A stretch of DNA of 64,000 nucleotides from Mucilaginibacter terrae. Lineage in GTDB: Bacteria; Bacteroidota; Bacteroidia; Sphingobacteriales; Sphingobacteriaceae. Location: the NCBI RefSeq assembly GCF_031951985.1, contig NZ_JAVLVU010000001.1, positions 3,844,001 to 3,908,000 on the forward strand. The letters run 5' to 3'. Under the pieces are notes generated by a model. The model searched no databases, was not told where the DNA came from, and saw only the letters and a program-made list of their open reading frames with translations. A program made the position numbers and the translations under genes. Numbering within the stretch: position 1 is the stretch's first letter; each line of letters starts with the position of its first letter. Of this stretch, positions 4,985 through 52,444 are shown piece by piece.

Positions 4985-5665
4985 ATGAAGAAGCTTCTAC
5001 TTGTTTTATTAACCGGCCTGTCTCTTGCCGCTTGTATTAAAGAAAAGGATAATAATGAGATAACCGGCCCCGAACCGATGCCCGAGAAAGTACTGTCGCG
5101 CGACACAATAAAAAGCGGCCAGCTATGGGGCTTTGCCATCGGGCAAACCAGTGCCCAGGTTTATGCCAAAGCACAGGAGATAAGTGTTGAACGCAAAATA
5201 GCTTACATGAGTGTGGTTGGTAATGTTTTTACCTCACTCGAGCCTCTCGAAAACAAGATACCGCTGTACACCACCATTCTTTTAGACCAAACCATTGGCA
5301 CCGGTACCGGCATACAAATTTACTTTGCCGACAATAAGGTAAAGAGCATGTGGACAAATGACGGCGTGCAAATGGGAAGATGGCCTGTTGTAACCGGCAG
5401 TAATTCATCAATAGCTGTTGAAGACCATATAAATGATGTGTACGCCAAACTGGTGAACATTAAAAAAATTAGCGCATATGCCAATAAATTTGAGCGTATT
5501 TCAATGTTCGATAAAGATTTTAGTAAAGCTTACGATCCGCAAATGGCCGCCTCGCGCCTGTGGTATGTAAACGGCAATATAGATGATAAGCAATATTACC
5601 GCTTAGAACTTAACTTTGTAGCAGGTAAGCTGGTTTCTATTTATTCTGCGCTGTTAGAAAAGTAG
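4985..5665 (+). CDS. Lipoprotein of unknown function
   Basis: 226 aa. The N-terminus MKKLLLVLLTGLSLAAC is a lipoprotein signal peptide with lipobox LAAC, so the mature protein starts at Cys17 and is probably outer-membrane anchored. A charged linker (KEKDNNEITGPEPMPEK) precedes a compact ~180-aa domain with no motif I recognise. It lies between two terminators and is therefore monocistronic. No function is proposed. Confidence 0.7.
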   Translation: MKKLLLVLLTGLSLAACIKEKDNNEITGPEPMPEKVLSRDTIKSGQLWGFAIGQTSAQVYAKAQEISVERKIAYMSVVGNVFTSLEPLENKIPLYTTILLDQTIGTGTGIQIYFADNKVKSMWTNDGVQMGRWPVVTGSNSSIAVEDHINDVYAKLVNIKKISAYANKFERISMFDKDFSKAYDPQMAASRLWYVNGNIDDKQYYRLELNFVAGKLVSIYSALLEK

Positions 5666-5684
5666 TTAGTTTTCCAAGACTATT

Positions 5685-5721
5685 AAAAGCCATTGCCTCG
5701 TACATAATGCAATGGCTTTTA
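5685..5721. terminator. Bidirectional terminator between convergent genes
   Basis: Perfect hairpin AAAAGCCATTG ... CAATGGCTTTT with A/T runs on both sides. It lies between the end of the lipoprotein gene (5665, +) and the stop of the convergent gene (5719, -). Confidence 0.8.
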
Positions 5722-6378
5722 TTTGCCATCCTCTAAAATACTTATATCAAGCTTTCGGGATGATAGCTTGTCCTTATTTACCGTCCACAATTTCCAGTGC
5801 TTGTTTGATGGGGTAAAAGGTAATTGAGATTTGATCGCTTTAATGTACTCAATAGCATAAGCGTCCAGTTCTTCAAAAGGGAGAACAAACCAAACCGAAA
5901 CGCTGTATTTGGAGCCGCACCTGAAACGTATTTGCGAATTGTGCAGCCGAACATCTATTATGGGGATGGTATCCTGCCCGGGCAATACTCTTTTATTCAC
6001 CGGATTGATAAAATGGAAACGCCATGTTACCGAAAAGGTTATTTTGTTGAACTTTTCGTGAAATGCCAGTGCTTCATCAACTTGCCTTGCAACAATATTC
6101 CAGGTCCAAACGGAGGTTCCGGAACCAATATATTGACTTAATGACCACGACGGTAGCCCAAAGCGTTTAATTGTTTCCCACAGCAACTTAAACGAAATTT
6201 TTTCTCCCTGGAAAAAGCTATTAAACTCCAACTGAACGCCCAGGGGCTGAGGTGCATTGGTGAAATGATTGGCAAAGTCTATCAATCGCTTGTATAATTC
6301 TGAAGCAGCAAATTTATTTATATAATGAGCACCGCCCGATTTTAGTGGCAAGCCATCGTATGTAATGAATTTTTGCAT
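5719..6378 (-). CDS. Hypothetical protein
   Basis: 219 aa, no signal peptide or membrane segment. It is rich in aromatic residues (for example SVTWRFHFINPVNKR, VSVWFVLPFEELDAY). I recognise no family. The coding frame is uninterrupted and the gene is bounded by a shared terminator downstream and a ~110-bp divergent intergenic region upstream, so it is likely real. It could be a soluble beta-rich protein; nothing supports a specific role. Confidence 0.6.
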   Translation of the reverse strand: MQKFITYDGLPLKSGGAHYINKFAASELYKRLIDFANHFTNAPQPLGVQLEFNSFFQGEKISFKLLWETIKRFGLPSWSLSQYIGSGTSVWTWNIVARQVDEALAFHEKFNKITFSVTWRFHFINPVNKRVLPGQDTIPIIDVRLHNSQIRFRCGSKYSVSVWFVLPFEELDAYAIEYIKAIKSQLPFTPSNKHWKLWTVNKDKLSSRKLDISILEDGK

Positions 6379-6491
6379 GTTTTGTGGTGGTTGGGTGGTG
6401 CTTATAAATATAATACTGATTTTTATTTTTTACTGTAACCATTTGCCCTTTACCTGCATCTTATAAATAAGAACAACAAAACCATAATATC

Positions 6492-7226
6492 ATGAAAACT
6501 ATAGCCACCATATTATTAGCCACTGCATTGGTTGCAGGAGCAACCCAAACCTTTGCTAAGCCAGCCATTACGGTTAAAGCCTACCATACCGACGAGCAGG
6601 ACCGCAAACTGTCGGGTTTTTCATCGGTAAGTGTATCGGGTTCATTCGATGTTTATCTTACACAGGGCAGCATCGAATCGGTTAAAGTGGAAGCTGATGC
6701 CGATGAGATAGATAAAATTGTGACTGAAGTTGATAACGGGGTTCTGAAAATTTATACCAAACGCACTACCGGCTTAACCTGGAACTGGGGAGGTAACAAA
6801 AAACGAATTGTACGTGTTGTGGCTAAAGACCTGCACAAAATTGGTCTGTCGGGTTCAGGAGATGTATTCTTTACCGATGGTTTCCGTACGCAGGATATGG
6901 TGGTAAGCTTGAGCGGTTCGGGTGATATTAAAGGTAAACTGGATGTTAAAAAGCTCGACGTATCCATCGTTGGTTCGGGTGATATCAGCCTTAGTGGTAG
7001 GGCCGAAACTTCGGCTGTTAAAGTATCAGGCTCGGGCGATTACAAGGGAAGTTCATTAACCACCGTGTCAACCTCAGTGAGAGTGGTAGGCTCGGGCGAT
7101 GCCTCGGTAAACGTAAGTGGGAAATTGGATGCCTCGGTAGCTGGTTCGGGTGATATCCGCTACACCGGCGGGGTTAAACAAATATCAACCTCTAAAGCAG
7201 GTAGCGGCGATATACATAAGTTTTAA
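6492..7226 (+). CDS. Head GIN domain-containing secreted protein (DUF2807-type)
   Basis: 244 aa with signal peptide MKTIATILLATALVAGATQTFA. The body is a beta-helix-like repeat in which GSGD recurs seven times at ~20-residue spacing (SGSGDVFF, SGSGDIKG, VGSGDISL, SGSGDYKG, VGSGDASV, AGSGDIRY, AGSGDIHK). This is typical of the Bacteroidota head GIN / putative auto-transporter adhesin family. It is probably periplasmic or outer-membrane associated. Biological role is unproven for most members. A strong terminator follows. Confidence 0.85.
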   Translation: MKTIATILLATALVAGATQTFAKPAITVKAYHTDEQDRKLSGFSSVSVSGSFDVYLTQGSIESVKVEADADEIDKIVTEVDNGVLKIYTKRTTGLTWNWGGNKKRIVRVVAKDLHKIGLSGSGDVFFTDGFRTQDMVVSLSGSGDIKGKLDVKKLDVSIVGSGDISLSGRAETSAVKVSGSGDYKGSSLTTVSTSVRVVGSGDASVNVSGKLDASVAGSGDIRYTGGVKQISTSKAGSGDIHKF

Positions 7227-7243
7227 GCTTGATAATATAAATA

Positions 7244-7275
7244 CTACAAAAGGCGCTTTATGCGCCTTTTGTAGT
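7244..7275 (+). terminator. Terminator after the head GIN gene
   Basis: Perfect hairpin CTACAAAAGGCGC / GCGCCTTTTGTAG with a 5-nt loop, 18 nt after the stop codon, followed by TTT. Confidence 0.85.
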
Positions 7276-7360
7276 TTAAGTACGTAATATAACCATAAAG
7301 TTTGCCCAATATGGGCTTAACACTAAGAGCATAGTTTTACAATTAAACCTGTAAGTGGCT

Positions 7361-7993
7361 ATGTTCAAATTTTTTGTACCAAAAAGCAATGTGTTCTTTA
7401 ACCTGTTCAACCAGTCGGCATCCAATAATGTGCGTATATCCGAGCTGTTGTACAAGGCCGTAAGCAGCGATTCGCCACATGAGGAAAAGATGCATTTTAA
7501 CCAGATAGCCCGGCTTAAAACCATTGGTAATGATTTAAAGCACCAGGTTTACACCGTGTCGTCGCGCTCGTTAATTTCGCCGTTTGAGCGTAATGATATG
7601 TATGCACTGGCATCAGCCATTAACCAGGTTTGCGATACCATGCACGTAGCCGCCCGCCGTTTAAGCCTGTATCAGTTAAGCACGGTAGAACCTGCCATTA
7701 AAGAAATTTCGGGCTTAATTATTGAAGCCAGCATGGAGCTCGACAAAAGCGTGAACTACCTGAGCAACCTGAGCCTGGCAGCCGATATAGCCGCCTGCTG
7801 CAAAAAAATACGTCAACTGGAAAACTACGCCGATCAGGTGTACGATAAGGCACTCTCATCTTTAGCCCATAACGAAACCAACGGCATCGAACTTATTAAA
7901 TACACCGAAATACTGGCCGCTTTAGAGCGCGCAACCGACCGTTGCGAGGATGCTACAGATGTGATAGAGAGTATTGTAGTAAAGAATACGTAG
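7361..7993 (+). CDS. DUF47 / PhoU-like protein
   Basis: About 210 aa, all-helical, matching the DUF47 family (TIGR00153/PhoU-like), which usually partners PiT-type phosphate transporters. Recognisable parts are MFKFFVPKSNVFFNLFNQSA at the start and FERNDMYALASAINQVCDTM in the middle. A GTG at 7355 would add two residues; I prefer the ATG at 7361 because family members begin MF/ML-K-F. Unusually, no phosphate transporter gene follows here; the next gene is a convergent pectate lyase. Confidence 0.85.
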   Translation: MFKFFVPKSNVFFNLFNQSASNNVRISELLYKAVSSDSPHEEKMHFNQIARLKTIGNDLKHQVYTVSSRSLISPFERNDMYALASAINQVCDTMHVAARRLSLYQLSTVEPAIKEISGLIIEASMELDKSVNYLSNLSLAADIAACCKKIRQLENYADQVYDKALSSLAHNETNGIELIKYTEILAALERATDRCEDATDVIESIVVKNT

Positions 7994-8008
7994 AAGTTAA
8001 AACTTGCG

Positions 8009-8054
8009 CTCGTTTATAACGAGTGCTTAACATGGCTTTGCGTTTATAACGCAA
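8009..8054. repeat. Two adjacent hairpins sharing the core GTTTATAAC
   Basis: CTCGTTTATAACGAG (8009-8023) and TTGCGTTTATAACGCAA (8038-8054) are two palindromes with the same centre and different stems. They lie in the gap between the convergent DUF47 and pectate lyase genes. They may be terminators or remnants of a repeat; no long U-run follows. Confidence 0.5.
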
Positions 8055-8117
8055 CTTATTGCATAATCCACAATATAATCATTCATCACAAACAAGCGTA
8101 ATAGTGCATATAAAGCC

Positions 8118-9521
8118 TTATTTAATACTATTCAAATAAACCTCCAGCATAGTATAACCACTTTTGTGCAGTTTATTCCGGTCGGCTGCGTTGTTTTTAT
8201 CTAAGCCGTTGGCTGTTTCCCAGGCATCGGGTATGCCGTCGTGGTCGGTATCGGCAGGAGCTGGTGCCATGTTATAAGCAGGCCAGCCACCTACGGCCAA
8301 TGCATCATCAATAATGCCTGCTTTATTTAAACTGCCCATGCCTTTGGGGTTATTGTTTTTTACTTCGTTAACAACACGGCTGTCCACCGCGTCGCGTTTG
8401 GGGAGCAGTGCCCCGGCTTTTTCCAGTACCGAGGTATAGGCATCAGCAGCTTTTTGGGTGTTGATGTTTTCTGCCTTGAATGCGGTGCTCGTTAGCACGC
8501 TGCTGCGTTTATCCTGGGGCAACCGGTTAAGGTCTAAACCTGCATTATTATTGGCGCTTAGTGCGGCATCGCCTTCCATCATGTTGCCGTTTAAGTACCA
8601 TTGCCCGGTTCCGGCTTCGTGGTAGGCTTCGCAAAACAGCTTTTTAACCCCCTCGGTTGCCGGACCGGGTTTGTAATAGTTGTTCACCATATTAATTTCC
8701 GACCGTCCGCCGGGAATTTTAATTTCGCCACCATAGCAGGCGCCGCTGCGCCCCCAGTTATAAATAACATTGTTGCGGTAATCTATCAACGCAATGGTAT
8801 CATGCGCGCGTGAGCCATTAAAACGTACGGCGCGGCTATATTGATTGGCAATTAAGTTGTGGTGGTAGGTTACATACTGCCCGCCCCAAACGCCGCCGTA
8901 ACTGCGCACGCCTTTTAAATGCCCTGCGTTATATAAACCCTCGCTTACTATGCACCATTGCACGGTTACGTTTTTAATATCGTACATGGCGGCGCACTCT
9001 TCATTTGCCCAGCTAAACGAGCAATGATCGATAATGATGTTTCGCATGTTTTCCATATCGAAACCATAAATGCCTGATGCGGCTTTACCTCCCGGTCTCG
9101 ACCGCAGATAGCGGATAATAATGTTTCCGTTTTTGCCGCCACCGTTTAGGATGAAAGAATTGCCTTTAAGGCAAATGCCGTCAACGGGCGCGGTTTGACC
9201 TGCAATGGTAAGGTTGGAGCGGTTGATTTTTATAGCCGATTGTAACTCAATAATTCCGGCAACTTTAAATATAACAGTAAGCGGTTCAGTAGGGTAAGCC
9301 TTTAAAGCCTCCCTAAAGCTACCCGGGCCCGAATCATTTAGGTTGGTAACTTCGGCTACCTGTCCGCCACGGCCGCCCGTTGCATATTTGCCAAAACCTT
9401 CGGCTCCGGGGAAAGCCACAAGTTTATCATCCGATGGATTTATTATATAAGTGGGTTGCTTAAAGGAGAATAAATAAAAGGCTCCGCAACATAGTAATGC
9501 AGCTATTAATGCTTTTTTCAT
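8118..9521 (-). CDS. Secreted pectate lyase (polysaccharide lyase family 1-like)
   Basis: 467 aa with an N-terminal signal/anchor (MKKALIAALLCCGAFYLF). The domain starts FPGAEGFGKYATGGRGG and continues with parallel beta-helix rungs (NIIIRYLRSRPGG, NIIIDHCSFSWANEE, QYVTYHHNLIANQYSRAVRFNGSR); the late RxxR is the expected catalytic arginine region of PL1 enzymes. Near residue 435 the motif DTDHDGIPDAWE is a calcium-binding type-3-repeat-like loop common on secreted Bacteroidota glycanases. It would cleave polygalacturonan by beta-elimination. It is about 3 kb from the arabinose operon, fitting plant cell wall use. Confidence 0.85.
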   Translation of the reverse strand: MKKALIAALLCCGAFYLFSFKQPTYIINPSDDKLVAFPGAEGFGKYATGGRGGQVAEVTNLNDSGPGSFREALKAYPTEPLTVIFKVAGIIELQSAIKINRSNLTIAGQTAPVDGICLKGNSFILNGGGKNGNIIIRYLRSRPGGKAASGIYGFDMENMRNIIIDHCSFSWANEECAAMYDIKNVTVQWCIVSEGLYNAGHLKGVRSYGGVWGGQYVTYHHNLIANQYSRAVRFNGSRAHDTIALIDYRNNVIYNWGRSGACYGGEIKIPGGRSEINMVNNYYKPGPATEGVKKLFCEAYHEAGTGQWYLNGNMMEGDAALSANNNAGLDLNRLPQDKRSSVLTSTAFKAENINTQKAADAYTSVLEKAGALLPKRDAVDSRVVNEVKNNNPKGMGSLNKAGIIDDALAVGGWPAYNMAPAPADTDHDGIPDAWETANGLDKNNAADRNKLHKSGYTMLEVYLNSIK

Positions 9522-9624
9522 ATAAGTATAATATGGTTTACAAACTTAAATGATTAAAGCAATTAACAGTTTAAAAGCCTTGTATTGGGGTGTAAAAGTT
9601 TGGGTACATTCGTTGTCAAAGCAT

Positions 9625-9654
9625 GTACCTGAGCGGCAAACATCGCTCAGGTAC
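9625..9654. repeat. Hairpin downstream of the SDR gene
   Basis: Perfect inverted repeat GTACCTGAGC / GCTCAGGTAC with a 10-nt loop. It lies 25 bp past the SDR stop and may serve as a transcription end, although no U-run is visible. Confidence 0.5.
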
Positions 9655-9678
9655 AGGTAATATAAGGTTATTTGCTAA

Positions 9679-10422
9679 TTATTTCAATCCGTAATTAAGA
9701 TAGCCACCATCAGCTACTATTTCTGTTCCGGTAATAAAACTTGCGGCATCTGAAGCCAGGAACAACACCGTTTTTGCAATTTCATCAGCATCGCCTAATC
9801 TTTGCAGCGCTGTGGCCGAGGCTAAATATGCTTTTGCTTCGGGAGGTACAGCATATTCTAAACCGGGTGTTTGAACCGGCCCCGGGCTAATAATATTTAC
9901 GCGGATCTTTCTATCTGCCAACTCGTTTGCAGCAATTTGGGCAATTTTATTTAATGCGCCTTTTGTTGCCGAATATATACTGGTTCCTAAATTGGAGGCC
10001 GTAGCCACTGTTGATGAGGTAAATACTACGGCCGCACCGTTTGCCAAATACGGAATAAGCTTTTGCAGGGTAAAGAAATGGCCTTTTACATTGGTGTTAA
10101 ATTGCGCATCAAACTCAGCCTCTGTTGCTTGTTCAATAGGGGTAAATATGCCTATTCCGGCATTAAGGAATAAAATATCCAATTTTTCGCCGCTATCGGC
10201 AATTGCTTTTTCCAGTATCGAAATATCGGCCAGATTAGCTGTATCTGAAACCACGGTTCTCAATTTGGTGCTGTCGATCTCGGCAGCAGCGTTCTGTAAA
10301 TTTTTGCTGTTTCTGCCGGTAATCCAAACATTAGCACCTGCATTAATAAATGCCTTAGCAGTTGCCAAACCAATTCCTGTGGTTCCGCCTGTTATAACTA
10401 CGTTTTTATTTGTGAAATTCAT
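9679..10422 (-). CDS. SDR family NAD(P)-dependent oxidoreductase
   Basis: 247 aa classical short-chain dehydrogenase. Cofactor motif TGGTTGIG near residue 12, LNAGIG near residue 89, catalytic Ser in FTSSTVA and YSATK with the Tyr/Lys pair near residue 153. The C-terminal GTEIVADGGYLNYGL is typical. Substrate unknown. It is transcribed divergently from an HxlR regulator across a 101-bp region full of GTAAC repeats, so it is probably the regulator's target, as seen for many SDR/HxlR pairs. Confidence 0.9.
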   Translation of the reverse strand: MNFTNKNVVITGGTTGIGLATAKAFINAGANVWITGRNSKNLQNAAAEIDSTKLRTVVSDTANLADISILEKAIADSGEKLDILFLNAGIGIFTPIEQATEAEFDAQFNTNVKGHFFTLQKLIPYLANGAAVVFTSSTVATASNLGTSIYSATKGALNKIAQIAANELADRKIRVNIISPGPVQTPGLEYAVPPEAKAYLASATALQRLGDADEIAKTVLFLASDAASFITGTEIVADGGYLNYGLK

Positions 10423-10473
10423 TGTTATATTTTTTGTTTACAATGCAAACTTATAACACATAAATTTATTTTG

Positions 10474-10521
10474 GTAACTTTGTAACCAAAAGTAACAGTA
10501 ACATTTGGGTAACAAGGTAAC
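10474..10521. promoter_or_regulatory. Cluster of six GTAAC repeats in the SDR/HxlR divergent promoter
   Basis: GTAAC occurs at 10474, 10482, 10492, 10498, 10509 and 10517, all on the same strand within 48 bp and ending just before the HxlR start codon. This density is far above background and suggests a cooperative operator for the HxlR protein. Confidence 0.55.
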
Positions 10522-10523
10522 TT

Positions 10524-10874
10524 ATGGTTGATAACGCTTGTATTTTAGGGCATAAAAAAGAGGTGATGGCTGTACATGATGCCATGGACGTGCTGAACGG
10601 AAAATGGAAGATTTCCATCATCTCGTCTATTTGCTTTTACAATGAAAGGCGATTTTCAGACATTCTAAACGATGTGAATGGAATATCAAATAAAATGCTG
10701 AGTAAGGAGCTAAAGGAACTGGAGGCAAATAAACTGATAAAGCGAAGCGTGTTAGATACACAGCCTGTAACGGTAAAGTATAACCTTACAGAATACGGAC
10801 GTACGTTGCAAACCATTATCAACAATCTTGCCGAGTGGGGTATGGAGCACAGGAGAGTAATTACCGGGAAATAG
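10524..10874 (+). CDS. HxlR-family transcriptional regulator
   Basis: 116 aa winged helix-turn-helix protein. Family marks: MDVLNGKWKISIISSICF, FSDILNDVNGISNKMLSKELKELE (recognition region) and VKYNLTEYGRTL. One cysteine at position 6 lies where redox-sensing members of the family carry their sensor Cys, so sensing of reactive electrophiles is possible but inferred. Divergent from the SDR oxidoreductase, with GTAAC repeats between. Confidence 0.9.
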   Translation: MVDNACILGHKKEVMAVHDAMDVLNGKWKISIISSICFYNERRFSDILNDVNGISNKMLSKELKELEANKLIKRSVLDTQPVTVKYNLTEYGRTLQTIINNLAEWGMEHRRVITGK

Positions 10875-10895
10875 TATTTGTAATACAACCTCTCT

Positions 10896-11525
10896 TTACA
10901 AAGTTAGGGCACAAAAGGTATACCCTTGTTTACTCCAAGCTTCTAAAGCTCTGGGCAGCGTATACTCCAGCCGGTTAAAGGCTTTTAAGCTATCATGAAA
11001 CACCACTATCGAGCCGTTTTCGGTATGTTTAAGTACGCCTTTAAGGCAATCTTTGGGTTTAAGCGACATATCGAAATCTCCGCTTAATACATCCCACATT
11101 ATAATTTTGAGGTGGGGTTTTAAAGTAAACAACCTTTGCGCTTGTGAGCGTTTAACACGGCCATAAGGCGGGCGGAATAATGACGTGCCCAATTGCTCAT
11201 CGGCCTTTAAATAATTGGCTACGTAGTTATCATCGTCGGTTTTCCAGCCTTTGAGGTGATTATAGGTATGGTTGCCAATAGCATGGCCATCGGCTTTTAC
11301 CTGTTCAAAAATGTCGGGGTGTTTATGTACGTTATCGCCAATGCAAAAAAAGGTGGCTTTGGCATTATACTGTTTAAGAGTTTTAAGTACAAACGGGGTA
11401 ACTACCGGTATGGGGCCATCATCAAACGTAAGGTAAATAACCGGCTCGTTGCGCGCTGCGTTCCAGGTGAATTTGGGATAGAGCTTTTTGAGCAGCCAGG
11501 GCGATTTTACCAGGTACATACGCAA
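10896..11525 (-). CDS. Polysaccharide deacetylase (NodB homology domain)
   Basis: 209 aa carbohydrate esterase 4 fold. Motif 1 TFDDGP near residue 33, motif 2 HxxxH in GNHTYNH, motif 3 RPPYG, and the C-terminal IVVFHDS all present, so it should be an active metal-dependent N- or O-deacetylase. No clear signal peptide; the first ~20 residues (MYLVKSPWLLKKLYP) resemble other short cytoplasmic or membrane-associated members. A second Met two codons in is an equally good start. Substrate unknown. Confidence 0.9.
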   Translation of the reverse strand: MRMYLVKSPWLLKKLYPKFTWNAARNEPVIYLTFDDGPIPVVTPFVLKTLKQYNAKATFFCIGDNVHKHPDIFEQVKADGHAIGNHTYNHLKGWKTDDDNYVANYLKADEQLGTSLFRPPYGRVKRSQAQRLFTLKPHLKIIMWDVLSGDFDMSLKPKDCLKGVLKHTENGSIVVFHDSLKAFNRLEYTLPRALEAWSKQGYTFCALTL

Positions 11526-41156: not shown

Positions 41157-41999
41157 TTATCTTCTTTCGCTAATAAAAGCCAACCCGTTTTCCTCACAGC
41201 AGGCAATAGCAACTGCTGATAATTGTACATCCCTTTTTGTAAGCCTTCTAATTTCATCTTTTAGGAATTTAACTCTATATCGACCAAAATTGGATATTCC
41301 CTCTGGGTCATTAGATATCGTCCTAATTTCGTCTACCATGCGTTGACAGAAATCCCATACCCTTTCTCTTAATTCTTCAAGCGGGGTATGGTCTAAATGA
41401 TAAAGTTTAATTGAAGTTTCAACCCTAATTTTATCCCGCACGTCTAAAATCGCTGGAGCGTTAGCGATTGCTTTTCCCTTTGAATCAAATGTAAGGAGAT
41501 TCGGATCATCCGCGTCGCAAGGGTCTAACAGCATAATTTCTTCATCTTTACATCTTGGTTTGTTTTTAGCTACAAAACTTCCTTCAAATAATGGGAAGTA
41601 AACCCACTTTCCACCTGCGACTTTTGCACTGTCAAATTTATCTCTTCTTGGTTCGTTAGAATATTGACTGCTAAATCTGTAATTTTCATAATCATATGCC
41701 AGCCACCAGTATCCGTCTTCATCTGCTCTTTTTATCCCTTTGATATTTTTAGCAATTCCTTTCGGTCTAAAGTGATCAATATCTCTGTCAGACATAACGT
41801 CCAATGCTTCCGAGTACCAACATTTACCCTTTGATAATTCACTTAAAGGAACAAATAATTGTTTCCAAATTTGATTTTTTTCAATAATCGTTTGTCTTTC
41901 TTTATCATCCGCAGCATTTAAAAGCATTTGGTTAAGTTTTGCAGCCTTATTTAACCAACCGTCAGGCAGAACAATTTCGTCCATATTGATATATCTCAT
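41157..41999 (-). CDS. HNH-type nuclease, Septu PtuB-like
   Basis: 280 aa. The motif DRDIDHFRPKG at residues 71-81, preceded by Cys60 (GKCWYS), matches the divergent HNH of PtuB/TIGR02646 proteins, where the DH/EH-FRPK segment carries the catalytic His. A second conserved-looking patch is WWLAYDYENYRFSS. The start overlaps the upstream ATPase stop by 4 nt (ATGA). In Septu, PtuB cleaves nucleic acid when licensed by the PtuA ATPase. Here the pair is the tail of an hsdM-hsdS operon. Confidence 0.82.
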   Translation of the reverse strand: MRYINMDEIVLPDGWLNKAAKLNQMLLNAADDKERQTIIEKNQIWKQLFVPLSELSKGKCWYSEALDVMSDRDIDHFRPKGIAKNIKGIKRADEDGYWWLAYDYENYRFSSQYSNEPRRDKFDSAKVAGGKWVYFPLFEGSFVAKNKPRCKDEEIMLLDPCDADDPNLLTFDSKGKAIANAPAILDVRDKIRVETSIKLYHLDHTPLEELRERVWDFCQRMVDEIRTISNDPEGISNFGRYRVKFLKDEIRRLTKRDVQLSAVAIACCEENGLAFISERR

Positions 42000-43603
42000 G
42001 GCTTCTTTTCTTCGTCCATAAGCTGTTTAATCAACACCGCCATTTTATCATTTTGGATCTTACGTTCTTCCAAGTTATTAGATGGCCTTTTTAAGTCTGG
42101 ATTTTGATATACAGCGTGAATGAATTTATCATATAACGGATCGCGTTGTGTTTTATCAAATCCAATACGAGATAATTTATTGGTTAGCACTTGAAGCTCG
42201 GCCTCAGTTTCAGGAGACAGTTCGCTATCCCTATTTAGTACTTCGAGTTCTCTTTTGCGGGTAAGATCTTTGAAAGATTCTTCATCCATAGAAGTTGGTA
42301 AATTAAAAAATTCTGAAGTTAAAATTCCGGCAACACCCAGACCCTTAGGGTCAAAATAAGGCTCCATTGTTTTAATCGTTTGCTTTTCTTTTCCATCTTC
42401 TGATATTTCACTTTTGCTGTAAAATACTCTAATCTCTTCTTTGGATAGTCCACCAATTACTAATGGATCATGTGTCGTCATTATAATTTGACTTGACTCA
42501 TCTTTATCGGTGTAGTCATGGAGTAAATTCATATATTTCCATTTCCACAATGGATTTAAATGGGTGTCCGGCTCATCTAATAGGATAAGTGATTCTTCTG
42601 CCTTTGTAAAGCGTAGTAATCCGATAACAGTAAGTAGTTGTTGTTCTCCTTCAGAGAGTTCTTTAAAAGTGATATTACCATCGACATGTTGCTTTTTAAC
42701 CTTCACCCTCACCTCTTGTATTAAATCAGACATGTAAGTGCTTTCCAATTTCTTGAAAAACTCTGTATTACGTCGGTATTTTTTGGCGATTTTTTCAAGT
42801 TTTTCTTGATTTGAAATATATAGGTATAATTCTTCCTGTTCAGGATGTTTATTAAAGTCTTCTCTGATCTTTTCTTTATGATAAATGGGCCCGATAGAAG
42901 CATCCCAAAGTTCAGTTAAGAAATCTTTGACAACCCCTTTAGCATACCAAAAACGAGAATCTCCTTCTTTTTTATTTCCTCTCCAATTCGGCTTTTTCAT
43001 AACAAATAACACGGATTCAAGCCCAACGATATTTAAATATTCTTTTAAGAACGTATTAATTTTATTGTCGTTGAAACCATAAAAAGCTAATAATACAAAA
43101 TAACTATGTATGTGCCTGGCGTAAAAGAGAGGCCGAAAAGGTTCATCAATTCCGTCAAGAAGATCCTTATAAAATTTATTTTGATGTCTATCAAAGTGCT
43201 CTAAAAGTCTATTACTGATACCTGAATAATATGAAAATACATATTTAGGTAAGTATTCGTCTCGGTTTTGCTCAATTTTTTTTTTCGAAATGGGCTTTTT
43301 ATCATACGCAATTTCTGCAAGGCTTTTTTGTACGCCATGATAGAATTGAAATTTACCCTTCGTTCCTGGCCCACCCACAACTTTTAATAGGTTATCCTTG
43401 CACTGATATTCTATCTCATAGTTAAACGGTGACTCCTCTTTTAGATCGAGATCACGAAATATAATAACAAGGGCCTCGAGAAAATTTGATTTACCAGCAG
43501 CATTTTGTCCTAATAAGACTGTATGTTTCTCTCTCTTGTCAATATCAATTTTAAAATCAGTGAGATTTTTAAATTCTTTTATGTAGACTTTATCTATTCT
43601 CAT
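41996..43603 (-). CDS. RecF/OLD-like AAA ATPase, Septu PtuA-like
   Basis: 535 aa SMC/ABC-type ATPase without a TOPRIM nuclease. N-terminus KVYIKEFKNLTDFKIDI; Walker A GQNAAGKS at 32-39; a helical middle ~200 aa; signature LSEGEQQLLTVIG; Walker B SLILLDEPDTHLNP; switch His in MTTHDPL. The length and single downstream HNH partner fit PtuA. It overlaps hsdS and the HNH gene by 4 nt each. It probably senses invading DNA or phage interference and controls the HNH nuclease. Confidence 0.85.
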   Translation of the reverse strand: MRIDKVYIKEFKNLTDFKIDIDKREKHTVLLGQNAAGKSNFLEALVIIFRDLDLKEESPFNYEIEYQCKDNLLKVVGGPGTKGKFQFYHGVQKSLAEIAYDKKPISKKKIEQNRDEYLPKYVFSYYSGISNRLLEHFDRHQNKFYKDLLDGIDEPFRPLFYARHIHSYFVLLAFYGFNDNKINTFLKEYLNIVGLESVLFVMKKPNWRGNKKEGDSRFWYAKGVVKDFLTELWDASIGPIYHKEKIREDFNKHPEQEELYLYISNQEKLEKIAKKYRRNTEFFKKLESTYMSDLIQEVRVKVKKQHVDGNITFKELSEGEQQLLTVIGLLRFTKAEESLILLDEPDTHLNPLWKWKYMNLLHDYTDKDESSQIIMTTHDPLVIGGLSKEEIRVFYSKSEISEDGKEKQTIKTMEPYFDPKGLGVAGILTSEFFNLPTSMDEESFKDLTRKRELEVLNRDSELSPETEAELQVLTNKLSRIGFDKTQRDPLYDKFIHAVYQNPDLKRPSNNLEERKIQNDKMAVLIKQLMDEEKKP

Positions 43604-45213
43604 GCTAATTCGAGATATCCTTTTTCTCCATCAACCTCTTTTACGGTTTTGTCGCTTTCAATGCACTTTTTTAAAGCTGCATAAAACTCATCAACATCTT
43701 CTTTATAAATCGACATTTTCCATAAGTCACCTGCAGCCGTTTTGCCGTGAATTTTTAATATATCTAATAATTCCATAGTTAGGTTGTCAATATTAAATTT
43801 TGGTATATTTACTTTAATTTTATTGGCTATTGAAGGGGCTAAATCACTAAGTTTATTTATCCTTACGTCTAGTTTGCCTTCATAGTCCCCAAATATCTCG
43901 CTTAGTCGTAATTGTAATAACAGGGTAGAATCGATTTTAATTTGTTCTATTTGATGTTTTAAGGCATTGATCGTTTCCATAGCATTATTTACTATATTAA
44001 CTATTTTCAGCTGCTCTTCATATGGTGGTAAAGCAATTGGGGTGCTTCTAACAACAGTCTTGTTAATTGAAGCTAAATTTGTTGTCTGTTTTGCAGATCT
44101 TTCATAGAAGCCATTATTAAACGAAGAATTTATAAAAATCAAAATATATTCTTCTGAAATTTTGTTAATGAATTTTCTTGCCCTGAAAATATGATTTTGA
44201 TGAATACATTCTGGAATTTCACATTTCCATAAAGCTGCCCTTCCTACTTTATCAGCATCACCACCCTCAGCCATTAATAGGTCACCGAATTTTAATTGGT
44301 ATTTATTCAAGTCAGATTTCGGGACCGCTATTTCTTTAACGTTAGTCAAATCAAGAAAATTCCGTTGTACATTAGCGACCCTTAAATAGGGGGTATTTAT
44401 AAGAGGCTCGTTATAAATTTTTCCTTTGGTTACTCCACCCGCAATGTGCATTATTGCCTCTAATCGGCACCACGTCCAATTTTTGGGTAATTTATAAGTA
44501 TTGTCATCTTTAGTGATTGACGGTAGGAGCAACTCTCGATTTATCTTCTTCGATTTTAATAGCTTAGCTCTAATATGTAAACTTTCTCTAACCAATTCGG
44601 TGGCACTACTAGCTTCTAAATTGGAATTACGCCAGCTTTTCGTAGAGTTGCCTACAATAGCATCATCCACTATGTTTTTTGAAAGTTTCTCAATTAAAGC
44701 GGATTGATAATTGGATTCATTGATAGCTTTTGCAGATTTAGCCTCTAAGTCTTGAATGTAATCTATAATTTCCCTTTGCTTAGGTTTTGGTGGTATAGGA
44801 ATTATTAAATTTATTAATTGATTAAAATGAATTCTTTTTGAGCCAACACCCTTTGAAAACGTTTTAAGCTTCAAATAAAACTGATCTTGCTTAAAAAAAT
44901 AATATATCCACTCTGGATAACAAACTTTGTCTATGTCAAATGCAGGAATGTCAGAACTTGATTCATAACCATCTAGCAGGTCTGGCACAATGCCAAAGGC
45001 CCCTTTCTCAAGATTTTGTTTTCCGTAAATAAACTGCCCCGCTCTTCTAATATAATATTTTGTAGCGCCTTGCTTATCGATGATATCAGGCCGTTTTTCA
45101 ACTCCGCCTACATTTAATTTTACTCTAATTCTTTTCGCAATATTCGGACTCACAGATTCAATTTTTGATTCGGTAAGGATATCACCAAGGCGAAAAAGTT
45201 TCCATTTATCCAT
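43600..45213 (-). CDS. hsdS: Type I restriction-modification specificity subunit HsdS with extra C-terminal domain
   Basis: 537 aa. Two target-recognition domains, each followed by a long helix: first begins WKLFRLGDILTESKIES and ends with PPKPKQREIIDYIQDLEAK, second begins LPKNWTWCRLEAIMHIAGG and ends with PPYEEQLKIVNIVNNAMETIN. An extra ~85-residue C-terminal part (LTMELLDILKIHGKTAAGDLW onward) looks like a winged-helix module absent from classical HsdS. Start overlaps the hsdM stop (TAATG). Confidence 0.9.
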   Translation of the reverse strand: MDKWKLFRLGDILTESKIESVSPNIAKRIRVKLNVGGVEKRPDIIDKQGATKYYIRRAGQFIYGKQNLEKGAFGIVPDLLDGYESSSDIPAFDIDKVCYPEWIYYFFKQDQFYLKLKTFSKGVGSKRIHFNQLINLIIPIPPKPKQREIIDYIQDLEAKSAKAINESNYQSALIEKLSKNIVDDAIVGNSTKSWRNSNLEASSATELVRESLHIRAKLLKSKKINRELLLPSITKDDNTYKLPKNWTWCRLEAIMHIAGGVTKGKIYNEPLINTPYLRVANVQRNFLDLTNVKEIAVPKSDLNKYQLKFGDLLMAEGGDADKVGRAALWKCEIPECIHQNHIFRARKFINKISEEYILIFINSSFNNGFYERSAKQTTNLASINKTVVRSTPIALPPYEEQLKIVNIVNNAMETINALKHQIEQIKIDSTLLLQLRLSEIFGDYEGKLDVRINKLSDLAPSIANKIKVNIPKFNIDNLTMELLDILKIHGKTAAGDLWKMSIYKEDVDEFYAALKKCIESDKTVKEVDGEKGYLELA

Positions 45214-46625
45214 TAAAATTTTATTTTTAAGAAAGACAATAATTCTTGGCTGCGTTGCATTGACCGCTCAAGGCGCAAAACAATTTCATCACTGTTTAAT
45301 TTTTCTTCCTGTTCTCCAAAATAAGGGCTTGATATATCTAAGTTGTAGTTGCGTTTTTTTATATCGTTAATAGAAACTTTCCAAGAGTAATCATTTTCTT
45401 GTCTTTTGTTCCACCAGGTTTTTTCAATTTCAAACTCTTTCAGAGTGATTGGTCTGGATCTATTATATGACTTCTGATTTGGGGGTAGCGGATGTTCGAA
45501 ATACCAAATGTATTGGGTCGGCTTGCCTTTTTCAAAGAATAAGAGGTTAGTTTTGATATTTGTATAGGGACTAAACACGCCATTTGGCAAACGAACGATA
45601 GTGTGCAAATTGCATTGATCTAAAAGCTCTTGCTTGATTCTTGTTCTAACGCCTTCGCCAAACAAAAAGCCATCAGGTAAAATTATAGCAGCTTTACCAT
45701 TCTTTTTCAATAGTTTGATAATTAAAGCTACAAACAAATCCGACGTTTCTTTTGTCCGAAAGTTAATAGGGAAATTGTCTTCTGTACCATCTTCCTCAAG
45801 GCCGCCAAACGGCGGATTGCTAAAAATTACATCAACTTGGTCGTCCTCTAACCAAGTACTATAAGGTTTACTCAACAAGTTATCACGATGTATTTTTGGC
45901 GAAGCGAAGCCTTGCAACATTAAGTTGGTCGTGCATAGTAAATGCGGAAGCGGTTTTTTTTCTATGCCTAGAACAGTGTCTTCTAATAATTCTATATCGG
46001 CGGTTGAATCCATAGCTTGAATATAATCAATACTACAAGTTAAAAAGCCTCCAGTACCACATGCTGGATCTAGTATCTTTTGACCTTTAGATGGCTCTGT
46101 CATTTCAACCATAAATTGGGTTACCGCTCTGGGAGTGTAGTATTCTCCAGAAGAACCAGCACTTTGAAGTTCTTTTAGAATCGTCTCATATATCTCATTG
46201 AAAACGTGAATCTCTCTAGAGCTGCTAAAGTTTATTTTATCAATTTCAATAACTACCTGTCTAAATAAGGTTCCATTTTTCATGTAATTATAAGTGTCCT
46301 CAAAAACAGCTTTTACAACATGTGCATACTCATTTTCTTTTTCATCAAGGTGCTTTAAAGTGGCAAAAAGCTCTTGATTGATAAAATCAATTAGAGCTTC
46401 TCCTGTGAGCTTGGTGTTATTAACAGCCCAATTTTCCCATTTGAGATGATGAGGGATAGGTGATTTGTAATTAGATATTCGATTTTTCCATTCTCCTTCT
46501 TTATCAGAAAATATTTTTAGAAACAGCATCCAAACCATTTGAGAGATTCTCTGTGCATCACCATCTACACCGGAATCTTTCCTCATGATGTCTCGAATAG
46601 ATTTAATAATTGTCGAAATATTCAT
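45213..46625 (-). CDS. hsdM: Type I DNA N6-adenine methyltransferase HsdM
   Basis: 470 aa. N-terminal helical domain (ISTIIKSIRDIMRKDSGVDGDAQRIS), SAM-binding motif LDPACGTGGFL near residue 186 and catalytic NPPFGG near residue 270. Normal HsdM length. It methylates adenines at sites chosen by HsdS and thereby marks self DNA. It heads a four-gene operon with hsdS, a PtuA-like ATPase and a PtuB-like HNH protein; no hsdR is found in the window. Confidence 0.94.
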   Translation of the reverse strand: MNISTIIKSIRDIMRKDSGVDGDAQRISQMVWMLFLKIFSDKEGEWKNRISNYKSPIPHHLKWENWAVNNTKLTGEALIDFINQELFATLKHLDEKENEYAHVVKAVFEDTYNYMKNGTLFRQVVIEIDKINFSSSREIHVFNEIYETILKELQSAGSSGEYYTPRAVTQFMVEMTEPSKGQKILDPACGTGGFLTCSIDYIQAMDSTADIELLEDTVLGIEKKPLPHLLCTTNLMLQGFASPKIHRDNLLSKPYSTWLEDDQVDVIFSNPPFGGLEEDGTEDNFPINFRTKETSDLFVALIIKLLKKNGKAAIILPDGFLFGEGVRTRIKQELLDQCNLHTIVRLPNGVFSPYTNIKTNLLFFEKGKPTQYIWYFEHPLPPNQKSYNRSRPITLKEFEIEKTWWNKRQENDYSWKVSINDIKKRNYNLDISSPYFGEQEEKLNSDEIVLRLERSMQRSQELLSFLKIKF

Positions 46626-47183: not shown

Positions 47184-48329
47184 ATGAAAAATATAATTGC
47201 GTTTGCAGACGAGTCTGGTAACAATTCTTTTGAGTTTTCGACTCAGGGAACGCATTTTATTGTAGCAAGTGTGATTCTTAGAAAGGATAAGCTTGAAGAA
47301 ACAGAATTGTTGATCGAAGACATAAGAAAACGCTATTTTCAGACCGGCGAGATCAAATCAAGCAAGGTTGGCGACAATCATTCCCGAAGGCTGAAAATTT
47401 TGCATGAGCTATCGAATGCCGACTTTTCCATCTATGCGGTCGTCGTTAATAAAAAGAAGCTCGTGGGTGAAGGGTTCAAATACAAGCCTTCGTTCTATAA
47501 ATTTTTAAACGGGCTTGTTTACAAAGAATTATTCAAGACCTTCCCAGAACTTGATTTAGTGGTAGACGAGCATGGAAGTAACGACTTTATGAGGCAGTTT
47601 AAAGTGTATGTAGAAAAGCATCATAAGCCCAATTTATTTTCAGGAAGCGAATTTCAGTTCTCTGGAAGTGCTACTAGCGTGATGATTCAACTGGCAGATT
47701 TTATCGCAGGAACACTTGGCAGATGCTTCGATGAATTGAGAAAAGTTCCTGAAGGTGAGCAATTTTTAAATATTCTTCAGCCGAAAATCACAAGCTTAAA
47801 TTTCTTTCCGTATGAACCACAACATTATCTTGCGGATGCTGAACTCAATAACAATAATTTTCACGAGTCAGTAGCACAGGCTGGTGTTAACAGTGCCATG
47901 CATTTTATTGAGAATAAAAAGGTTGTGACGCAGGATGATGCTGATCAGGTCAACTGTGTAAAGCTAATACTTCTTTATTTCAACACTTATGGAACAAAGC
48001 TATATATCACCACGAAACAAATCATTCAACACTTACAGGTTGGAAGGGTAGAGCCGCTCAGCGAGCACCAATTTCGCACTAAAGTTATTGGTCAAATCCG
48101 GGACGTAGGCGTGTTGGTCGTAAGCAGCAGCTCCGGTGTTCACAAAGGTTACAAATTGCCTGCATCTCTGAATGATCTGTATAGGTTTGTCAATCATGGA
48201 AACAGTGTCATTATGCCAATGCTGCATCGAATAAAGGTGTTCCGCGAAAAGATTAAATTAGCCACACTCAATGAAGTGGATATTTTGGAAAATGAGGACT
48301 TTTTAGGATTGCGTGATTTACTTAAGTGA
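47184..48329 (+). CDS. DUF3800 domain protein with C-terminal helix-turn-helix-like part
   Basis: 381 aa. N-terminal DUF3800 fold (RNase H-like) with the acidic motif IIAFADESGNNSF at residues 3-15 and a second acidic patch LDLVVDEHGSNDF near residue 125. The ~110 C-terminal residues (YITTKQIIQHLQVGRVEPLS...) resemble a winged helix. DUF3800 proteins are frequent beside restriction systems and are suspected nucleases. Function unproven. Monocistronic and divergent from hsdM. Confidence 0.82.
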   Translation: MKNIIAFADESGNNSFEFSTQGTHFIVASVILRKDKLEETELLIEDIRKRYFQTGEIKSSKVGDNHSRRLKILHELSNADFSIYAVVVNKKKLVGEGFKYKPSFYKFLNGLVYKELFKTFPELDLVVDEHGSNDFMRQFKVYVEKHHKPNLFSGSEFQFSGSATSVMIQLADFIAGTLGRCFDELRKVPEGEQFLNILQPKITSLNFFPYEPQHYLADAELNNNNFHESVAQAGVNSAMHFIENKKVVTQDDADQVNCVKLILLYFNTYGTKLYITTKQIIQHLQVGRVEPLSEHQFRTKVIGQIRDVGVLVVSSSSGVHKGYKLPASLNDLYRFVNHGNSVIMPMLHRIKVFREKIKLATLNEVDILENEDFLGLRDLLK

Positions 48330-51433: not shown

Positions 51434-52444
51434 ATGGAAGTGTTTATAAGGGTGCTTAACGTCGGTGACGGTGATGCAGTTATTGTTAAAGTAATTGATA
51501 CGGACAGAAAACTTGTTTTTATGATCGATGCAGGTCATCCTTACGATTATGAAAAGGTTAGCAAAAATCTGAAAGAAGTGTTAGAAAGTGTGGAATTGCC
51601 CGCACCCGACTTTATATTATGCACCCATTACGATAATGATCATATCGGAGGATTATTAAAACTGGTAAAGGATTATGAAACTCAAAAACCTTCGGTTTGG
51701 ATCCATGCGACAAGTGAAAAGATCAATGTTAAAGATTTAACTGAGCTGGTGAACCATGAGCCGGAAAATGGAATCATGCCATCTGAGGAAGATGATAATC
51801 TGGCGGGGGAAAATTCAGCTAACATAGTTTATTATCAGAATGTACTCACTACTGTTGAGCAAGAGATTGCTTTGCTGGAATATTTACGGCCTGCAGGTTT
51901 TTCTTGCAAGGAACCGCTTGCTGAAAATTTTAAGATCGACCAATGGCCGGAACTGTCTATCTTGAGCCCCACCACTTCATTTTATGAGACCTTGTTCCCC
52001 GAACATTTCAGTACGCAGGAACTGGTCGAGAATCATATGAATGTCTTAAAGGGCGCGGAAACTGATCAAAAGATTTCAGATGATCCATGCAAAAAGCTTG
52101 ACCTGAAAAAATCCCCGATCACCGCGACGAACATGAACAGCGCCATATTAATGCTGGTAGCAGACGGCAAAAAGATCATATTTAGCGGAGATGCTGGAAT
52201 AGAGTCTTTTGAAGCGATCCCGGATTATAAAAACGTGCTTGACCAACTGTACTTTTTGAAAGTTCCGCATCATGGAAGCAGAAACAATATCAACCAGGAA
52301 TTGATTCAACTTATGAAACCAAGAATTGCTGTTATTTCCGGAAGGCACCATGTATCCGGTGATGTTTTGGCCTGTTTAAAGGCAACTTGTGAAGAAGTTT
52401 CGGTAACGAAAGATGGTCAGGATATCGATGTAACTATACCTTAA
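51434..52444 (+). CDS. ComEC-like metallo-beta-lactamase fold hydrolase
   Basis: 336 aa, soluble. Metal-binding motifs: THYDNDHIGG near residue 63 (HxxxDH), later FSGDAG near residue 250 and LKVPHHGSRNN near residue 275. This matches the stand-alone MBL domain related to the ComEC C-terminus, usually a nuclease or phosphodiesterase. It is divergent from a papain-like protease gene and followed by a 64-aa gene. MBL and protease pairs occur in bacterial conflict modules, which is the best contextual clue. Confidence 0.85.
   Translation: MEVFIRVLNVGDGDAVIVKVIDTDRKLVFMIDAGHPYDYEKVSKNLKEVLESVELPAPDFILCTHYDNDHIGGLLKLVKDYETQKPSVWIHATSEKINVKDLTELVNHEPENGIMPSEEDDNLAGENSANIVYYQNVLTTVEQEIALLEYLRPAGFSCKEPLAENFKIDQWPELSILSPTTSFYETLFPEHFSTQELVENHMNVLKGAETDQKISDDPCKKLDLKKSPITATNMNSAILMLVADGKKIIFSGDAGIESFEAIPDYKNVLDQLYFLKVPHHGSRNNINQELIQLMKPRIAVISGRHHVSGDVLACLKATCEEVSVTKDGQDIDVTIP

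Follow-up and report, generated by a model that had tools for sequence, protein, structure and literature searches.

Septu type I systems are defined by two genes, encoding the ATPase PtuA and the HNH nuclease PtuB, with no further conserved partners. PtuAB is also found in retron I-A (PADLOC Septu type II), which consists of a reverse transcriptase (RT), msDNA, PtuA, and PtuB. In retron-Eco7, where PtuAB acts as the toxin and RT-msDNA as the antitoxin, there is a loss of tRNA-Tyr (PMC11555353). One E. coli Septu system cleaves tRNA-Tyr, for which both the ATPase and the HNH residues are needed (PMC13096335), and according to an earlier report, as cited in PMC11555353, the PtuAB proteins of another E. 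coli Septu system cut nicked DNA. In EcoprrI, an effector containing an ATPase is encoded among hsd genes. This effector, PrrC, is a single protein that includes an anticodon nuclease domain and is encoded at a type Ic locus that contains hsdR. PrrC is silenced by the linked type I restriction-modification (R-M) enzyme (PMC2610378) and activated by phage Stp (PMC2610378; PMC12707154), and the gene order in the operon cloned in PMC11555353 is hsdR-hsdS-prrC-hsdM.

The operon examined here, hsdM-hsdS-ptuA-ptuB, spans positions 46625 to 41157 on the minus strand of the window, which refers to the whole stretch of 64,000 nucleotides from Mucilaginibacter terrae that was analysed. All neighbouring genes overlap, and the junction letters are ..TTTTAATGG.. 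for HsdM/HsdS, ..GCATGAG.. for HsdS/PtuA, and ..CCATGAG.. for PtuA/PtuB. The open reading frames and junctions confirmed to the base the overlapping string of four genes given in a preliminary description of this DNA, and every motif cited there for the four proteins was intact.

The hsdM gene (45213..46625, minus strand) encodes an N6-adenine methyltransferase subunit of 470 amino acids with the motifs DPACGTGGF and NPPFGG, which matched N6_Mtase with 241 bits, HsdM_N with 40 bits, and PADLOC MTase_I with 639 bits. The hsdS gene (43600..45213, minus strand) encodes a specificity subunit of 537 amino acids. The match to Methylase_S (50 bits) was split over 2 stretches and, together with a structure model, bore out the 2 target-recognition domains (TRDs) previously assigned to it. 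The ptuA gene (41996..43603, minus strand) encodes a RecF/Rad50-like ATPase of 535 amino acids with the motifs GQNAAGKS, LSEGEQQ, and LLDEPDTH, matching AAA_21 and SMC_N as well as PADLOC PtuA1 (PDLC00293), the latter over its full length with 625 bits. The ptuB gene (41157..41999, minus strand) encodes an HNH nuclease of 280 amino acids with the motif DxDHFRPK and the residues H76, N106, and N115, which matched PADLOC PtuB1 (PDLC00343) with 273 bits. The best PDB matches to the PtuB model (mean pLDDT 93) were the PtuB proteins of retron Ec78 and E. coli Septu. The PADLOC scores and the PtuB fold thus agree with the earlier assignment of the ATPase and the HNH protein to the Septu type. It was also noted that 3 of the 4 zinc-knuckle cysteines of PtuB relatives have been lost in the window protein.

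Comparison with described systems

The operon has the same 2 protein families as Septu type I, encoded side by side by overlapping genes, but hsdM and hsdS belong to it too, and its HsdS protein has an extra domain. Like retron I-A, in which PtuAB is controlled by a linked sensor and which provides the nearest solved PtuB folds, it contains PtuAB next to a candidate sensor. However, HsdMS takes the place of the reverse transcriptase, for which there was no match in the open reading frames scanned upstream of the operon, at 47 to 52 kb, or on reading the downstream sequence to 36 kb. The PrrC operon corresponds to one of the gene-order classes described below, with ptuAB taking the position of prrC between hsdS and hsdM. 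Unlike PrrC, the effector here consists of 2 proteins with an HNH nuclease, and hsdR is optional and lacking in this genome. As in type I R-M systems, HsdM has intact methylase motifs and HsdS has 2 TRDs, but no gene for the HsdR translocase-nuclease of these systems was found in the operon or elsewhere in the genome, and the window HsdS has an additional C-terminal winged helix.

More distant similarities were observed to the HsdM-like, HsdS-like, and ATPase-like parts of MADS (mad2, mad5, and mad3). The scores were all far below the curated cut-offs (104 of 720 bits for mad2, 33 of 420 for mad3, and 46 of 400 for mad5), and the window operon contains neither a kinase nor mad7. A MADS-like locus is located elsewhere in this genome. 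The order hsdM-hsdS-ATPase, followed by a gene for a small HNH-like protein, is also seen at 4 loci with TIGR04435 ATPases (L058, L060, L062, and L064). The window ATPase scored 116 bits against the TIGR04435 cut-off of 300, compared with 749 bits for L060 and 531 bits for L062, and the HsdS proteins at these 4 loci, unlike the window HsdS, lack the C-terminal domain. The existence of the family TIGR04435 shows that NCBI curators were aware of restriction loci with a related ATPase.

The genome is assembled into one contig of 5,485,925 bases (5.49 Mb). No match to HSDR_N (PF04313) was found in the 5.49 Mb, in a search whose control was positive in 9 of 14 genomes. The matches to ResIII (PF04851) of a size compatible with HsdR were PriA, RecG, UvrB, Mfd, SNF2-type, or other helicases, and a profile built from 14 HsdR proteins of related loci recovered only UvrB and the helicase cores of 2 open reading frames of 507 and 1087 amino acids. 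The probes were considered sound since PF04313 matched 12 of these 14 HsdR proteins and ResIII matched all 14. The sole HsdR-like motors in the genome were the helicases of 507 and 1087 amino acids, both of which lack HSDR_N. A hidden hsdR gene elsewhere in the genome was ruled out by the searches with PF04313, PF04851, and the HsdR profile. As noted previously for the operon, no hsdR was found, here in the genome as a whole.

A search of the genome with PtuA and N6_Mtase identified a second locus, L049, at about 175.6 to 181.1 kb, with the same order hsdM-hsdS-ptuA-ptuB. It adjoins genes that, judging from their sequences, encode integrase-like, mobilisation, and TraG-like proteins of a conjugative element. 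The PtuA proteins of the 2 operons are only about 40% identical (42% and 39%), and they are therefore not the product of a recent duplication. The preliminary description included neither this second copy nor the C-terminal winged-helix domain of HsdS.

Conservation of the four genes and distribution of hsdR

A PtuA alignment was searched against 84,980 species genomes and retrieved no fewer than 483 relatives, of which the 80 best-matching loci were fetched with flanks of up to 9 kb. Of these, 53 were fully flanked. Since the 80 loci are the top matches to the window PtuA, the sample is biased toward close relatives.

The hsdS gene was located directly upstream of ptuA in 52 of the 53 fully flanked loci, which departs from the definition of Septu type I as 2 genes without further conserved partners. 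Likewise, hsdM and/or hsdS were present in the cluster at 52 loci, with hsdM recognised in 51 to 52 of them. The gene orders were (R)-M-S-A-B and (R)-S-A-B-M, where the letters represent hsdR, hsdM, hsdS, ptuA, and ptuB, besides one locus with S-A-B only (L111) and one with ptuAB but no hsdMS (L150). The 3 plasmid-borne relatives examined were arranged as S-A-B-M or M-S-A-B, and a search of their plasmids for hsdR was negative. One of them is the S-A-B-M operon on the Pantoea plasmid pEuc2 (NZ_CP045722.1). Overlaps were seen between hsdS and ptuA in 65 of 76 cases and between ptuA and ptuB in 72 of 79. The linkage of hsdMS to the ATPase and HNH genes that had been reported for the window is thus a conserved unit that recurs in the relatives, and this unit is formed by hsdMS and ptuAB. 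The recurrence in 52 of 53 relatives and the second operon in the same genome show that the order of the 4 genes is more than chance.

A total of 18 phyla are labelled on the PtuA tree, including a methanogen. The pairwise distances of PtuA were correlated with those of HsdS (0.60) and HsdM (0.49), and none of 500 shuffles gave values as high. The NPPF motif of HsdM was retained in all 76 relatives, the residues H76, N106, and N115 of PtuB in all 83 sequences, and the Walker A, signature, and Walker B residues of PtuA were conserved among the relatives.

The hsdR gene was present in 16 of the 53 fully flanked loci and absent from the fetched flanks, of up to 9 kb, of the other 37. Its presence requires 16 changes on the PtuA tree, of which at least 9 are forced by well-supported branches, and a locus with hsdR and one without it could have PtuA proteins that were 80% identical. 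No hsdR relics were found at the loci without the gene, where weak tblastn matches in 3 loci resembled other helicases, and HSDR_N was wholly absent from 11 of these 37 genomes, many of which are drafts. The hsdR gene has thus been gained or lost repeatedly and is optional to the unit. A strict absence of hsdR across the family was ruled out by the 16 loci that contain it, contrary to the expectation that such loci consistently lack the gene. The related suggestion that PtuAB functions instead of HsdR agrees with the 37 loci without hsdR, but PtuAB is not a strict substitute, given that 16 loci have kept hsdR and that the gene has come and gone repeatedly.

The C-terminal winged-helix domain of HsdS

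The HsdS protein has 537 amino acids in the window and 480 to 660 in most relatives. The structure model (mean pLDDT 87) displayed 2 TRDs and 2 long helices, followed by a disordered linker (residues 444-479; 43777..43884, minus strand; pLDDT <50) and a compact C-terminal domain with the topology H-H-H-E-E (residues 480-537; 43603..43776, minus strand; pLDDT ~85-93). Foldseek matched the body of the protein to solved HsdS structures, and some of the weak matches were to winged-helix proteins.

A profile of this tail matched 74 of 76 HsdS proteins in the set of 80 loci, both with and without hsdR, and also the HsdS proteins encoded by the 3 plasmids, which had been left out when the profile was built. 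There was no match in any of 8 HsdS proteins adjoining other ATPases without PtuB, in 2 other HsdS proteins tested from this genome, or in the HsdS protein of L054, although the latter locus has the order. Among 395 Bacteroidota genomes, of which 283 contained Methylase_S proteins, the tail was found on HsdS only in the window, in its paralogue, and at one other ptuAB locus. Similarly, in 337 genomes of the class to which L126 belongs, only the genome of L126 itself was matched. The tail as a general feature of HsdS was ruled out in these 2 sets of genomes. The profile also touched open reading frames of about 60 to 120 amino acids in one Bacteroidota family, one of which weakly matched HTH_11, and the fold is thus that of a common winged helix.

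The HsdS tail goes with a PtuB-type partner. Its median sequence identity among 20 close relatives was 62%, which is similar to PtuA (62%) and HsdM (66%), compared with 38% for TRD1 and 19% for TRD2, indicating that the target specificity has been exchanged while the tail was kept. The tail is the most direct hint of a coupling between HsdMS and PtuAB, and its co-occurrence and conservation suggest that it may dock PtuAB.

Probable control of PtuAB by HsdMS

The recurrence of the gene set across phyla, usually without HsdR, suggests that the methylase probably controls the nuclease. We consider it likely that the 4 genes constitute one defence system, with HsdMS as the sensor or gate and PtuAB as the effector. 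By analogy, HsdMS may gate PtuAB much as RT-msDNA does in retron I-A and as EcoprrI does for PrrC. An M2S1 complex would methylate the recognition sites of the host, and the HsdS tail would dock the PtuA-PtuB complex and keep it idle. The trigger may be a phage that inhibits or titrates the methylase, or an encounter of the complex with many unmethylated sites, upon which the Rad50-like PtuA ATPase would change state and the PtuB HNH nuclease would be freed. The outcome would be an abortive infection of the PrrC type through tRNA cleavage. HsdR would be dispensable and, where present, would add ordinary restriction. It is plausible that the methylation state licenses PtuAB, as the preliminary description had it, but a guard mode similar to that of PrrC fits at least as well.

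An effector that is held off and acts by abortive infection is favoured here over DNA restriction, on the precedents of tRNA-Tyr as a PtuAB target and of PrrC silencing, although sequence cannot decide between them and the cutting of nicked DNA reported for another E. coli Septu system counts against this preference. If PtuAB instead served as a surrogate for restriction, HsdMS would recruit or license it at fully unmethylated sites, and the DNA would be cut in the place of HsdR with the cell spared. The HNH and Rad50-like parts would be consistent with a nuclease that acts on DNA, and HsdM and HsdS are intact, with diversifying TRDs, even though 37 of the 53 loci lack hsdR. However, simple replacement is difficult to reconcile with the 16 loci in which hsdR is kept beside PtuAB, a scan against domain families identified no helicase or translocase domain in PtuA, and tRNA-Tyr is the target of 2 characterised PtuAB systems. 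We regard surrogate restriction as rather unlikely.

It is highly improbable that PtuAB supplements a complete type I R-M system in the manner of PrrC, with the loci that lack hsdR being decaying remnants. The PrrC precedent and the hsdR gene in 16 operons are in line with such a relationship, but the loci without hsdR are in the majority, retain all catalytic residues, and contain no hsdR relics, and this genome has 2 such operons, with others located on plasmids that lack hsdR. Defence genes often cluster, family tools score the 2 halves of the operon separately, and ptuAB occurs by itself at L150, as might be expected if the methylase were an orphan and the stand-alone Septu system an independent neighbour in a defence island, but this interpretation is the least probable and is largely refuted by the adjacency at 52 of 53 loci, the gene overlaps, the correlated distances, and the association of the HsdS domain with PtuB-type partners.

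An extension of the gated-effector model, which we put forward tentatively, is that PtuAB is a plug-in effector with a swappable sensor, RT-msDNA in retrons and HsdMS here, for which the winged helix of HsdS would be the plug. If so, a methylation-gated abortive-infection nuclease that does not need a restriction translocase would occur across many phyla of bacteria and in one or more archaea. Type I methylases without hsdR are found in many genomes. One widespread group of them probably gates a Septu nuclease, and the HsdS tail provides a sequence marker for finding this group. It also becomes testable what holds PtuAB off and what releases it.

Each of the parts is known, but the open literature searched did not describe their combination or how widely it is spread, nor did it mention the optional hsdR or the HsdS tail. 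No description of Septu with HsdS or HsdM was found in the open-access literature searched, which is weak evidence of absence. Annotation divides what is probably one system in two, so that the R-M half looks incomplete and the Septu half seems to stand alone. The RefSeq labels on the plasmid copies read only subunit S, AAA ATPase, hypothetical protein, and methyltransferase.

Additional hsdM-hsdS loci in the same genome

A second hsdM-hsdS-ptuA-ptuB operon was identified in the M. terrae genome at about 175.6-181.1 kb (positions 5564-11087 of the fetched locus L049), where it is housed in a conjugative element, and its PtuB protein has retained the zinc-knuckle cysteines. A further hsdM-hsdS pair without hsdR was located at about 152.7-158.3 kb (L048, 4664-10308), within a second element that carries genes for an integrase and for mobilisation. 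This pair was preceded by genes for an OLD/AriA-like ATPase and a 336 amino acid protein, for which PADLOC gave no match. One more hsdMS without hsdR was found at about 3.38-3.39 Mb in a MADS-like locus (L050, 4524-15451), which encoded HsdM-like and HsdS-like proteins, a 1379 amino acid kinase resembling PglW/mad6 and, at 155 bits, a mad7-like protein.

Genes flanking the operons

The neighbours in the window included genes for a DUF3800 protein with a weak match to PDC-M04A (47184-48329) and an LmuA-like protein (110 bits) with a metallo-beta-lactamase fold (51434-52444). At related loci, the place upstream of the operon was often taken not by hsdR but by an AbiEi/AbiEii or a PDC-M21A/B pair (L090, L098, L122, L123, L131 and L147; and L078, L079, L110, L111 and L152), which sometimes overlapped the first gene of the operon. 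A protein of roughly 414 amino acids, weakly similar to PLD-type nucleases (DrmC, PLD helicase), was encoded near the operon, often immediately 3' of ptuB (L077, L082, L088, L089, L120, L131, L136).

HsdS tails and a sister architecture

The C-terminal tail was separated from HsdS by an in-frame stop in L148 (7446-8996) and placed in a different frame in L113 (5255-7151); these detached tails are either split genes or sequencing errors. The tail was missing from HsdS in L058, L060, L062 and L064, which represent a sister architecture of hsdM, hsdS and an ATPase gene (family TIGR04435 in L060 and L062), with a gene for a roughly 350 amino acid protein, weakly similar to PtuB/PDC-M01B, coming after them. 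Some of these four loci contained hsdR and others did not.
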